Origin: Gammaproteobacteria bacterium
Lineage (GTDB): Bacteria; Pseudomonadota; Gammaproteobacteria; Steroidobacterales; Rariloculaceae
Direction: 5' to 3'
DNA length: 64,000 nucleotides
Assembly: GCA_022820625.1 (NCBI GenBank)
Contig: JAJEFE010000062.1
Location: 1-64,000, forward strand
Within the stretch, counting starts at the first letter, position 1. Each line of letters begins with the position of its first letter. The notes beneath the pieces were generated by a model, which ran no database searches, was not told the DNA's origin, and saw nothing but the letters and a program-made list of their open reading frames with translations. This document shows, piece after piece, positions 9,443 to 14,161 of the stretch. The translations under genes and the position numbers were made by a program.

Positions 9443-9565
9443 CAACGAACTTGGCTGCGCCCGATGCATTCGTACTGTTGTCGGGTAATGCCGAGTCCGG
9501 CAAGATGGCAACTTGCCGGACAGTCGAATAAACGCCTTCGTCAACCAGATCCAAGAGAGTTTATC

Positions 9566-10306
9566 ATGACAAAATACATTAGATATTTTTGTTTACTATT
9601 TGTTTTTTCAATATCACTCCCCGCATTTTCTCAGGTCAGCGTGGAAGAGGCGCTTGCCGCGGAAGCGCGCTCCGATGAAGACCGGGCCAGGGACCCCGGG
9701 CGGATGCCGGCACAGGTGCTGGAATTCTTCGGAATCGGCGCAGGGTCCCGCGTGGCCGACCTGCTGTCGGGCGGCGGCTACTACACGCGAATCCTTGCGC
9801 CGGTGGTCGGTCCGGACGGCGCCGTCTACGCCGGAAACAATCCTTTCTTCGATCGCTTTGGCGCCGAGGCGCTGACGGCATTGCTGAGCGAACCCGGTTT
9901 CGAAAACGTGATGCGGATCGACGCCCCGGTGGACGAGATACCGCTCCCTGACGACGCCTCGCTGGATGCCGTGATGATCGTCCTCGCCTATCACGACCTC
10001 TGGCTGACCGATGAGGATCGCGGCGAACTGAACCGGCGCGTGCTGGCAGCCCTCAGGCCGGGCGGCGTCTACGGAATCATCGACCACCACGCCGCCGAGG
10101 GCGCCGGCACCAGCGCGATCGAATCGCTGCACAGGATCGAGGAGAGCGTGATCGTCGATGAAATCACCGGGGCGGGCTTCCTGCTCGCGGCCACCGGGGA
10201 CTTCCTGTCGAATACCGAAGACGATCGTTCGCTCATCGTCTTCAATCCGGACATACGCGGCCGGACAGACCGGTTCGTGCTCAGGTTCGAGAAGCCTCAG
10301 GAGTAA
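9566..10306 (+). CDS. Exported SAM-methyltransferase-like protein
   Basis: The 246-residue product has a clear signal peptide (MTKYIRYFCLLFVFSISLPA, cleavage near AFSQ) followed by a methyltransferase-like Rossmann domain. Motif I is altered (VADLLSGGGYYTRILAPVVG), and ALRPGGVYGIIDHHA resembles motif III. The ribosome-binding site AGAGAG precedes the ATG. The signal-peptide codons are markedly AT-rich compared with the rest. Exported SAM methyltransferases are odd because SAM is cytoplasmic, so the domain may have another function. It converges with the equally exported oxidoreductase-like gene at 10392. Confidence 0.72.
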   Translation: MTKYIRYFCLLFVFSISLPAFSQVSVEEALAAEARSDEDRARDPGRMPAQVLEFFGIGAGSRVADLLSGGGYYTRILAPVVGPDGAVYAGNNPFFDRFGAEALTALLSEPGFENVMRIDAPVDEIPLPDDASLDAVMIVLAYHDLWLTDEDRGELNRRVLAALRPGGVYGIIDHHAAEGAGTSAIESLHRIEESVIVDEITGAGFLLAATGDFLSNTEDDRSLIVFNPDIRGRTDRFVLRFEKPQE

Positions 10307-10325
10307 GCGGCCGGAGTCAGCGAGA

Positions 10326-10352
10326 CTGCCGGCGCCCGCAATGCGCCGGCAG
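10326..10352. terminator. Hairpin between convergent genes
   Basis: A perfect 10-bp inverted repeat (CTGCCGGCGC / GCGCCGGCAG) with a 7-base loop lies between two converging genes. There is no T-run on either side, so intrinsic termination is plausible but not assured. Confidence 0.5.
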
Positions 10353-10391
10353 CCCTGGACCCCGGGAGGAACTGGCTAGGGACGAGTGTCG

Positions 10392-11096
10392 TCAGTTCGT
10401 GCCTGTACGGCGGAAGTGGTAATCGTACGGCGTTCCCGCGGTACGGGCATTGATCCAGATCGCCAGCATGCCTTCCAGAACGTGGGCGCCGCTCAGCGGC
10501 CCGACGTCCATGGGCTCCAGTCCCATACCCGCCACCAGATCGGCGACGCGGGCCTTGGCCTCGGCATCATCGCCCACCAGCGGGATGGTCACCGGCCCAC
10601 CCGGCTCGATCATCGTCCGGAAGTTCAGCGTATTGAACGCCTTGACCACGGTGGCCCCGGGCGCCGCGGCCTGAACCAACTCGGCGTTGGACGTCTCCAT
10701 GGTATAGCGCGTGAAACCGTCATCCCCCCGCGTCACACGATTCGTGGGATCGATGATGATCTTTCCTGACAGGTCCCCAAGGCTGCCCGCGACTTCCTCG
10801 GCGACAGTGCCAGGAACGGCCAACACGACCATATCGGCTCCGGCAACCGCCTCGGTCTGGGTCATGGCCGAAGCGTTGCCCCCGGTGCGTTCGACCAACG
10901 CGGCGACGTCCTCCCGGTCCGGCTCCCGGGAACCGTAGACGATGTCATGACCCTGGGCGGCGAACTCGGGTCCCAGCGCGCCCGCAACGTTGCCCGTGCC
11001 GATGATCGCGATGGTGTCGGCCACGGCAAGGCCCTGAAGGACCCACCCCATGACCAGGATTGCGAACCCTGCTGAAATTCTCTTGATCGACGCCAT
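10392..11096 (-). CDS. Exported NADP-binding oxidoreductase, F420-dependent reductase-like
   Basis: The 234-residue protein opens with a signal peptide (MASIKRISAGFAILVMGWVL, cleaved near AVAD) and goes straight into a Rossmann fold: TIAIIGTGNVAGALG, then VYGSREPDRED, whose Ser-Arg pair suits NADP(H). ADMVVLAVPGTVAEEV and VVKAFNTLNFRTM are typical of the NADP oxidoreductase coenzyme-F420-dependent family (NpdG-like). Family members are normally cytoplasmic; export to the periplasm, where NADPH is absent, is unusual. Substrate unknown. It is transcribed away from iorAB. Confidence 0.75.
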   Translation of the reverse strand: MASIKRISAGFAILVMGWVLQGLAVADTIAIIGTGNVAGALGPEFAAQGHDIVYGSREPDREDVAALVERTGGNASAMTQTEAVAGADMVVLAVPGTVAEEVAGSLGDLSGKIIIDPTNRVTRGDDGFTRYTMETSNAELVQAAAPGATVVKAFNTLNFRTMIEPGGPVTIPLVGDDAEAKARVADLVAGMGLEPMDVGPLSGAHVLEGMLAIWINARTAGTPYDYHFRRTGTN

Positions 11097-11218
11097 GCCT
11101 GCTTCTCCCTGCTGCCCGCAATTTGCGGCTTCAATTCCGATTCAATGGTAGCCCAATTCCGTGAATCTTTTGAACACGGGTGGGAATAACGAACCGAGTA
11201 GTTGCCGGCCGTGAACCG

Positions 11219-11262
11219 AATGGCCGGGGAGTGTGGACCGAATGGCCGGGGAGTGTGGACCG
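11219..11262. repeat. Tandem 22-bp direct repeat
   Basis: Two perfect copies of AATGGCCGGGGAGTGTGGAC plus CG lie head to tail at 11219-11240 and 11241-11262, preceded by a partial unit (GAACCG). They sit in the 259-bp gap between the exported oxidoreductase and iorA. Repeats of this style occur at the ends of some IS21-like elements, but no transposase is nearby, so origin is unknown. Confidence 0.7.
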
Positions 11263-11355
11263 ACTTGTTCGAATCCAGCATGACCCGCTGGTATCCGCAT
11301 ACCAACAGGCGTATGTTTGGGCTCTGCACAGCGACGTTCCAGGGGGCAAACTAAC

Positions 11356-11820
11356 ATGGCAACCTTCACCCTCAACGGTGACAGCGTAACGGTCGAGGCT
11401 GAGCCCGACGCACCCCTGCTCTGGGTCGTGCGTGAGCATCTGGGACTCACCGGAACCAAGTTCGGCTGCGGCATCGGACAGTGCGGCGCGTGCACGGTGC
11501 ATGTGGATGGCGCGTCCACCTACGCCTGTCTGACACCCGTATCGGTTGTGGAAGGCCGGCAGGTCACCACCATCGAAGGCCTGTCCGAGGATGGCGCCCA
11601 CCCGCTCCAGCAAGCCTGGATCGCCGAAGAAGTGCCCCAGTGCGGATACTGCCAGCCCGGGCAGATCATGCGCGCCGCTGATCTTCTGGCCAACAATCCG
11701 CAGCCGAGCCGCGACGAGATCGTGGCCCACATGAGCACGAATATCTGCCGATGCGGGACGTATACCCGCATCGTCAGCGCCATTGAGCGCGCTGCGCAGG
11801 AGGCCGGTAATGAAGCGTAG
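11356..11820 (+). CDS. iorA: Molybdenum hydroxylase small subunit, 2Fe-2S (IorA-type)
   Basis: The 154-residue subunit carries two [2Fe-2S] clusters that pass electrons from the molybdenum subunit. The plant-ferredoxin-type cluster is bound by cysteines in [18 protein letters not shown] and a later ACLT; the second by CGYCQPGQ and NICRCGTY. These are the signatures of the isoquinoline 1-oxidoreductase alpha / aldehyde dehydrogenase small-subunit family. No FAD subunit is encoded nearby, consistent with the two-subunit type. The stop overlaps the start of the large-subunit gene, indicating translational coupling. The actual substrate (aldehyde or N-heterocycle) is not predictable. Confidence 0.88.
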
Positions 11821-14161
11821 CGACAACCTGACTGGCGCCGAAGCGATGAGCCGCGATGTCATCGCCTCTTCGGGCGGACTGTCGGCACGCGGCAATCTCG
11901 ATGCTCCGTCCGGCGGTCTGGCGTCGCGCCGTGAGTTCATGCAGGGGGTGGGAGTCACCTTGACCGTGGGCGCCACGGGGGTCATCGGCGCCTGCAGCAT
12001 GCCGTCCGGGGACTCGGGCGACACCGGCGCACCGGAGCCCGGCATGGCCGCCAACGACGCCGTCACTCCCAACGCCTGGGTCAGCATCGGCGCCGATGAC
12101 GTGATCACCATCCAGTTCGGCGCCACCGAAATGGGCCAGGGTTCCATGACATCCGTTCCCCTGGTGCTGGCCGAGGAAATGGATGCCGACTGGGAACGCG
12201 TGCGAGTCGAAACCGTGAGTCGCCACGATTCCACCTACGGCAACCCGATGGCGTTCGGATACTACGGTTTCCCCATCATGTACACCGCCGGCAGCGCTGC
12301 GCTCCGGGGCTATTTCAACGCCATGCGGCAGGCCGGCGCACAGGCGCGCAAGTTCCTGCTCGATGCCGCGGCGGAGCAGTTGGGCGTCCCGGTGGAAGAA
12401 TTGTCAACCGAGCCCAGCCGGGTCGTTCACGCCGCCAGCGGGGAAAGCCTCAGCTACGGCCAGATTGCCGCCGCTGCAGCGATCCCCGAAAACCTGCCGG
12501 AAGTGCCGGAAAGCGAGTACAAGCCCAGGAGCGAATACCGATACCTTGGCACGGACGTACCGCGAATTGACGTGCCCGCCAAGGTCGATGGTTCCGCCGA
12601 GTTCGGAATCGACGTTCAGATTCCCGACATGGTCTACGCCTCGGTGCTGCGCACGCCCGTCGAGGGCGAAGAACCCGTTGAGGTCAACGACAGCGCCGCG
12701 CGCGCGATCCCCGGAGTCACCGACGTCATCACCCTGCCCTACGGCGTCGCCGTCGTGGGCGAGACCGTCGAAGGCACCATATGGGGCAAGAACGCGCTGC
12801 AGGTCACATGGAGCGAGAGTTCCCGGTTCCGGGACGTCGACCAGGCCCGCGATCTGGACGAATACGAGGCACGCGCTCTCGACCTGAGCTTCAGCACCGG
12901 CAATCCGCTATGGCAGGAGGTGGGCGATATCGAGCCGGCATTCGAATCGGCGGATCGGACCATTGAGGCCGTGTACCGCTCCGACCCGGCCTACCACGCG
13001 CAGATGGAGCCCATGAACGCGACGGCAAGCGTATCGGCCGACGGCCGGTCGGCGGAGATCTGGGTGAGCACCCAGACCCAGAGCCTGACGGCCATGGCCG
13101 CGGCCGACCTGCTGGGAACGGACGTCGACCGCATCACCGTGCATGCGAAGTACATCGGCGGCGGATACGGCCGCCGCGCCGAGTACCGGCAGAAGGACGT
13201 CGAGGACGCCCTCAATCTGTCGCGGGCGCTCGGCCGCCCGGTCAAGGTCATCTGGAGCCGGGAGGATGACGTGCGAGACGGCGTCTTTCGGCCGCTGGCC
13301 GCGCAATACCTCCGGGCCGCGCTGGACGCCGACGGTAGCATCACTGCGTTGCAGCAGCGCGTGGCGACACCCAGCGTCCTGAGCTACATGAACGAGCCGC
13401 GCTGGGCGCTTTCACGCAACCGAGACGGCATCTCCATGAACGGCGCCCAGGTCACCCGCTACGCAATCCCCAACATACGCGCCGAACACGTCATGGTGGA
13501 CCGCTGTTCCCGGCTGGCCGCGTGGCGGGGCGTGGCGACGAGCTATACCCGGTTCGCCAACGAGTCCTTCATCGACGAAATCGCGCACACCCTCGGTGCG
13601 AACCCGCTGGAACTTCGTCTCGATCTGACTCGGGACAATCCCCCAGGCCGCTCGGTTCTGGAAGAAGTGGCGCGGATGGCCGAGTGGTCGCGCCCGCGGG
13701 AAGGCACCTCCCTGGGCGTGGCGCTGTCCGACTATGGCGGCGCTTCCGTGGCCGCGGGCATCGCCGAGGTCTCGGTGAACGAAGACACGGGCGTCATCAC
13801 CGTTCACCGATACTGGATGGCCATCGATGCCGGCTTCATCGTCTCGCCCCGCAATACCGAAGCGCAGATGGAAGGCAACATCGTCTACGGCATCAGCAGC
13901 GCCCTGAAGGAGCGCATCAGCGTCAACGCGGGCTCCGTGGACCAGTCGAACTTTCACGACTATCCCGTGATGCGCATGAACGAGATGCCGGAACTCCATG
14001 TGAGGGCGTTACCAAGCGACGGGCCGCCCAGCGGCGTCGGCGAACTGGGTCTCGCAACCACGGGACCCGCCATCGCCAACGCCGTGTTCGCGGCTACGGG
14101 CGTGCGGTTACGGGAGTTGCCGATGACGCCAGAGCGGGTGTTGGCCGCCATGCGCGTCTGA
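11810..14161 (+). CDS. iorB: Molybdenum hydroxylase large subunit, Tat-exported (IorB-type)
   Basis: The 783-residue catalytic subunit binds the molybdopterin cofactor and belongs to the xanthine dehydrogenase/aldehyde oxidase superfamily, isoquinoline 1-oxidoreductase beta type. A twin-arginine signal appears around residue 40 ([19 protein letters not shown]), unusually far from the N terminus, followed by GACS, so periplasmic location is likely, with the small subunit carried along. Cofactor-loop signatures include [18 protein letters not shown] and the C-terminal [17 protein letters not shown], which contains the conserved catalytic-type Glu. The ATG at 11810 overlaps iorA by 11 bases. Confidence 0.88.

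Follow-up and report, generated by a model that had tools for sequence, protein, structure and literature searches.

Neighbouring genes for two proteins with predicted export signals, an FNO-family protein with a predicted NADP site and a methyltransferase-fold protein, in a gammaproteobacterial genome

In the window, by which we mean the whole 64,000-nucleotide stretch of DNA analysed, a class I methyltransferase-fold protein (MT) and an FNO-family protein (FNO) are encoded by adjacent genes and each begins with a Sec-type signal peptide. The reading that we find somewhat probable is that they are two unrelated exported proteins, which became neighbours by chance in one genus, FNO being a periplasmic NADP(H)-binding oxidoreductase and MT a member of a separate family with the methyltransferase fold. 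Textbooks place the coenzyme NADPH in the cytoplasm. With a large Sec-exported clade whose NADP site is better kept than in cytoplasmic relatives, and with some ten apparently exported NAD(P)-fold proteins in one genome, the question of an NADP(H) pool in the periplasm can be put to a direct test; the MT family raises the same question for SAM, or else represents a repurposed fold. The source genome is a draft, 95% complete and with about 5% contamination.

Gene boundaries, export signals and start codons

The convergent arrangement described in the earlier note at 9566-11096 was confirmed, with 85 bp separating the MT and FNO genes (Table 1). The hairpin between them is possibly a terminator shared by both genes; the intergenic region as a whole folded no better than its own shuffles (z -0.5). 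A conserved RNA element in the window was considered and rejected, no Rfam family reaching its gathering score. The [2Fe-2S] gene next to FNO, which is oriented divergently from it, probably has its real start downstream of 11329. The molybdenum hydroxylase that follows it is matched by PaoC, XdhA and other models, every score being below its cut-off.

Table 1. Coordinates of the MT and FNO genes and of neighbouring features in the window
Feature	Position	Strand	Details
Exported class I methyltransferase-fold protein (MT)	9566..10306	+	ATG 9566, stop 10306, 246 aa
MT Sec-type signal peptide, residues 1-22	9566..9631	+	MTKYIRYFCLLFVFSISLPAFS|Q, cleavage point read by eye
Shine-Dalgarno-like AAGAGAG	9553..9559	+	6 nt upstream of MT ATG 9566
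Hairpin, 10-bp stem and 7-nt loop	10326..10352	.	between the converging MT and FNO genes
Exported FNO-family (PF03807) NADP-binding protein (FNO)	10392..11096	-	ATG 11096, stop 10392, 234 aa
FNO Sec-type signal peptide, residues 1-26	11019..11096	-	MASIKRISAGFAILVMGWVLQGLAVA|D, cleavage point read by eye
Shine-Dalgarno-like AGGGAG	11105..11110	-	8 nt upstream of FNO ATG 11096
22-bp unit, twice, head-to-tail	11220..11263		ATGGCCGGGGAGTGTGGACCGA; in the gap that separates FNO from the [2Fe-2S] gene
[2Fe-2S] subunit (context)	11329..11820	+	PF01799, PF00111; head to head with the FNO gene
Molybdenum hydroxylase large subunit (context)	11783..14161	+	Tat-type signal SRREFMQG

Both N-termini run from a basic stretch through a hydrophobic core to an AxA-like site, and in FNO the signal peptide is fused directly to Rossmann strand beta-1. 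The signal peptides that the earlier note had reported on both proteins recur across the two families and are not a feature of this genome alone. At E 1e-10, MT was matched in 56 and FNO in 35 of the 58 genomes searched, all of which share the window's genus, family or order, and removal of duplicates left 57 MT rows and 60 FNO rows for the order. A home-made signal-peptide rule was satisfied by 58/60 FNO and 53/57 MT rows, and a count of exported FNO by eye likewise gave 58/60, taking L093 as a false positive of the rule and L061, which has no charge, as apparently exported (L078 is frameshifted). Since the rule is loose and called 6/27 E. coli K-12 proteins, with rfaH and mobB among them as evident errors, the case for export is built on conservation and not on the rule. 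The MT rows that failed it were L009, whose ORF runs off its contig, and L020, L024 and L030. These last three MT homologues, without signal peptide, come from three genomes of 1.3-1.4 Mb belonging to one family. Among the best 32 phylum-wide MT members, 31 were judged by eye to carry a signal peptide or a lipobox, the exception being L245. A lipobox-like signal followed by a linker was seen in L010, L012, L013, L014, L015, L026, L029, L116 and other MT homologues, which are probably lipoproteins. Judged from its sequences, the MT family is widespread and nearly always of the exported or lipidated type.

A different view of these N-termini is that the helices are membrane anchors holding cytoplasmic domains, or that the true starts lie downstream of them; of the readings weighed here it is the one to which we give least credence. 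The codon for residue 25 of the window FNO is GTG, two codons ahead of the mature start, so that a downstream start is conceivable in this protein, and the three small-genome MTs do without a signal. However, with exported and cytoplasmic labels assigned by eye and with the order and named-genome sets overlapping in some contigs, ATG, GTG and TTG were all absent around the joint in 32/51 exported FNO relatives of the order and in 25/33 of those among the named-genome matches listed (8/33 have one), against a start codon at the joint in 44/44 cytoplasmic relatives among the matches listed. The named-genome scan comprised at least 79 loci, 33 with a signal peptide fused to strand 1 by eye, 44 without it and two truncated. 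Downstream starts that would remove the signals in relatives, the outcome that the earlier note had named as fatal to its proposal, are thus unlikely, and so is export as a start-codon artefact. Positive residues precede the hydrophobic stretch; by the positive-inside rule, under which such residues place the domain outside, the domains should therefore lie beyond the inner membrane. The cleavage-like AxA sites of both proteins and the lipobox cysteines of some MT homologues also speak against anchors.

Concerning the export route, the window FNO has KR and the window MT no pair, and a crude twin-arginine pattern detected an RR-type motif in 5/51 order FNOs of the main clade, 4/7 of a second clade and 0/53 MTs. 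A Sec-exported protein should cross the membrane unfolded and empty of cofactor. The suggestion that bound cofactor is brought along would suit the Tat pathway, whereas the signals of both window proteins are Sec-type.

The NADP site and history of exported FNO

PF03807 matches FNO with 74.2 bits against a cut-off of 21.6 (E 1.3e-20), and its AlphaFold model (mean pLDDT 93.1) consists of one alpha/beta domain past residue 26. The NADP motifs of the window protein are GTGNVA and, after strand 2, GSR. In the 73-row exported clade, counting the rows that have a letter at each position, these residues are nearly invariant (G33 73/73, G35 73/73, G55 72/72, S56 70/72 and R57 72/72), whereas the cytoplasmic relatives among the matches listed keep R57 in 41/45 and S56 in 28/45. 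By these counts the predicted site for the NADP 2'-phosphate is more highly conserved in exported FNO than in its cytoplasmic relatives.

The best PDB matches to the model were the FNO-type structures 5n2i (Thermobifida, NADP+) and 3dtt, and STEAP4; in sequence searches 1jax and STEAP4 ranked first. FNO/NpdG proteins (1jax, 5n2i) share with the window protein the PF03807 domain, the fold and the GTG..GSR NADP motif. Yet the window FNO is exported, its npdG (TIGR01915) score of 76.9 bits is about half of the cut-off of 149.8, and CofD (PF01933), the sole F420 gene sought and one detected in 10/14 controls, was not found in its own genome, which is 95% complete. Because CofD was not found, an F420 partner is unlikely, and FNO as an F420 enzyme was rejected on this result and on the missed npdG cut-off. 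In the earlier description of an "NADP(H)-binding F420-reductase-like" protein, the first half agrees with the conserved NADP residues and the second half suits the protein poorly. STEAP proteins (2vns, 2yjz, 6hcy) provide the next best match in sequence and fold, and the NADP site is common to both. In STEAP the FNO-like domain sits in the cytoplasm, joined to a heme membrane domain, whereas the window FNO is a lone exported domain of 234 aa with no heme membrane domain. A further comparison is offered by glucose-fructose oxidoreductase (GFOR), whose NADP is tightly bound and exported along with the enzyme. GFOR has the Gfo/Idh/MocA fold and a Tat signal, in contrast to the different fold and Sec-type signal of the window FNO. 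According to PMC4628093, the GFOR of Zymomonas mobilis, an enzyme with an NADP fold, is active in the periplasm.

A tree of 125 FNO rows from the named-genome matches as listed and the order set (80 exported and 45 cytoplasmic, with row L165 covering 12% of the kept columns) required two label changes, against a mean of 36.9 for shuffled labels, and 0/500 shuffles came as low. The window FNO falls in one group of 73 exported rows with a support of 100/100, and a separate second exported group contains seven rows. Comparison of the mature parts with two genus mates gave dN/dS values of 0.14 for FNO and 0.05-0.08 for MT, indicating purifying selection. On this tree and the conservation seen, the predicted export of FNO is an old and selected trait with one main origin. 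In a proteobacterial ancestor, an FNO-family protein of the cytoplasm would have acquired a Sec signal peptide in place of its initiator Met, and the NADP site would have been kept ever since. The second group consists of L088, L089, L090, L091, L092, L094 and L095, four of them with twin-arginine-like signals; in all seven, position 152 holds R in place of K and the motif is of the SSR or SSQ type.

The methyltransferase-fold protein

No Pfam family matched MT at E 0.001, and its best NCBIfam match, UbiE, was far below threshold (22.6 bits against a cut-off of 378). The AlphaFold model (mean pLDDT 93.8) shows a class I methyltransferase fold, with 3dh0 as the best PDB match (Z 20.7, rmsd 2.8, 176 residues aligned). 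The structure libraries offered no one close match in function, and 1000/1000 realigned chains had Z of at least 8, which makes the fold a poor guide to what MT does. Ten residues are invariant in the 57 order rows: R35, D43, G85, D134, H143, G166, H174, G204, F205 and D219. In the best 32 loci of a phylum sample, one of which is the window's own locus, H143 and D219 recur in 32/32 and H174 in 31/32. These invariant polar residues suggest that MT is probably an enzyme. Its profile matched 135/249 genomes; numerous weak UbiE-like matches contribute to this figure, which should not be taken as the size of the family.

UbiE and MT have the motif I region in common; E. coli UbiE differs in having neither a signal peptide nor an equivalent of H143 or H174. 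CysG and BelI, metal-dependent O-methyltransferases, have the same fold as MT and a His that aligns with H143 after strand 4. The metal ligands of CysG are His122, His123 and Asp191 (PMC11408123, in its available text), and in a weak alignment that stops short of Asp191, His122 falls on H143 and His123 on D144. The His-His-Asp set of CysG is thus matched at its second place by D144 in MT (D in 42/57, N in 13/57); CysG also keeps the ribose Asp that MT usually lacks, and the text of PMC11408123 available to us gives no account of export of CysG or BelI.

These residues bear on the possibility, which we hold to be doubtful, that both proteins are repurposed folds, no longer users of SAM and NADP, in which the Rossmann pocket serves some other ligand or binding alone. 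At the end of strand 2, which is the SAM-ribose position, the window MT has N91 in place of an acid; the acid is absent from 50/57 order rows (D in seven) and from 32/32 of the wider set, and Asp stands there in UbiE, 3dh0 and CysG. RebM (3bus), however, also has no acid at the aligned place, so a missing acid does not by itself exclude SAM and is not a strict criterion. Motif I cuts both ways. D65, G69 and G71 are present in the window and in most order rows (D or E65 57/57, G69 39/57, G71 50/57), which argues against repurposing, whereas the bulky residues at 67 (L in the window) and the invariant H143, H174 and D219, the first two replaced by R and F in UbiE, would fit it, as does the presence of SpnF, a [4+2]-cyclase with the class I methyltransferase fold, among the structure matches. 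Some exported aldo-keto reductase-type proteins (AKRs) of the same genome also look catalytically broken, as described below. The NADP residues of FNO, on the other hand, are better kept than those of its cytoplasmic relatives. When the contact residues were compared as the earlier note had proposed, those for NADP proved conserved and those for SAM gave a mixed result, motif I being partly kept and the ribose acid usually absent. In our reading of an NADP(H)-binding FNO and a separate MT family, MT, with its conserved His/Asp site and changed SAM-ribose position, would probably act on a small molecule of the periplasm, whether it uses SAM or not.

By their titles, the reports on secreted methyltransferases among the matches listed concern mainly parasites and mycobacteria. 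The literature searched, which had most subscription journals outside it, yielded no mention of periplasmic NADPH or of COG4798. Neighbours resembling a type III pantothenate kinase and a biotin ligase, named by eye, are common to the MT paralogues L031, L032, L033, L085 and L099, and the same kinase-like and ligase-like neighbours accompany L101, L109, L110, L111 and L119.

Gene neighbourhoods and possible partners of FNO

MT and FNO are adjacent in 3/34 genomes that hold both, a count made on draft contigs in which a few adjacencies could be hidden. A joint function of the two in a single periplasmic pathway, the paired system of the earlier note, is accordingly very unlikely in our view. 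The three genomes (G000, G001 and G005), where the genes converge as in the window, belong to one genus, and in G003 of the same genus FNO has the same surroundings (alanine racemase, YhdH-type dehydrogenase and [2Fe-2S]/Mo enzyme) without MT between (L144). Both families also have further paralogues elsewhere in the same genomes. What can be said for a pair, apart from these three cases, is that an alphaproteobacterial contig (L165) carries two MT genes within about 3-5 kb of exported FNO genes, so that a looser link may exist. The homologues have thus kept their signal peptides and, with 3/34 genomes, not the pairing, and a general MT-FNO pair was ruled out.

A conserved neighbourhood of FNO overall was likewise rejected, as its neighbours vary widely among the loci listed. 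A census took 83 distinct FNO genes at loci classed as exported (one, L165:6228, appears cytoplasmic), and the genes within 3 kb of them included YhdH-type dehydrogenases (9), [2Fe-2S] subunits (6), SDRs (6), AKRs (4) and MTs (4, three of them from the window's genus); these are minorities, counted without a matched random control and with many flanks of only about 1.5 kb. AKR and SDR neighbours, called at E 1e-10, together were found on six contigs, and most of the 83 genes had no AKR or SDR homologue in the available flank. In G022, G050 and G037, from one genus, an exported FNO is followed by an AKR gene, with a Tat-type signal where its start is covered, and in G022 and G050 an SDR gene with a Tat-type signal also lies downstream. 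An AKR gene with a Tat-type signal precedes the exported FNO in G021, and in L165 and L169 an FNO gene whose product has a Sec signal faces a convergent SDR gene, whose product carries a lipobox as well as a Tat-type signal.

Judging from predicted N-termini, about ten NAD(P)-fold proteins appear to be exported in the window's own genome. Export signals were assigned by eye to 3/8 AKRs (Tat type), to 3/3 close FNO homologues, to three SDRs (two Sec, one Tat) of the 30 loci inspected, out of 32 matches, and to 1/14 Gfo/Idh/MocA proteins (Tat type). The Tat-type AKRs are L260, L261 and L262. Judged by eye, L261 and L262 appear to be missing catalytic-tetrad residues that are kept in L260, so an exported NADP fold can drift from catalysis. 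The SDRs L286 and L290 carry Sec-type signals, that of L290 fused straight to Rossmann strand 1 as in FNO.

A more far-reaching proposal, which we consider unlikely, is a periplasmic NADP(H) redox network in which Tat-exported AKRs and SDRs bring the cofactor, Sec-exported FNO binds it and shuttles hydride, and Tat-exported Mo hydroxylases possibly feed the system. If true, extracytoplasmic NADP(H) metabolism would not be limited to isolated, self-contained enzymes of the GFOR kind. In the reading that we favour, of two unrelated exported proteins, we infer that FNO most likely binds NADP(H) after folding beyond the inner membrane and most likely passes hydride between NADP(H) and a periplasmic partner other than F420; exported AKRs, SDRs and Tat-exported molybdenum enzymes would be candidate partners. 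We know of no periplasmic source of NADP(H). Counting against this reading are the cofactor-free Sec crossing, the possible GTG start, the apparent loss of catalytic residues in two of the three exported AKRs, the small share of FNO genes with AKR or SDR neighbours, and the by-eye export labels together with the loose rule.

Two further loci resemble the surroundings of the window FNO. In L085, from another genus, homologues of the [2Fe-2S] protein and the Mo enzyme adjoin a distinct paralogue of exported FNO with 47% identity, and in L208, a cyanobacterial contig, a cytoplasmic FNO-like gene is found about 1-6 kb from Mo enzyme-, [2Fe-2S]- and YhdH-like genes.
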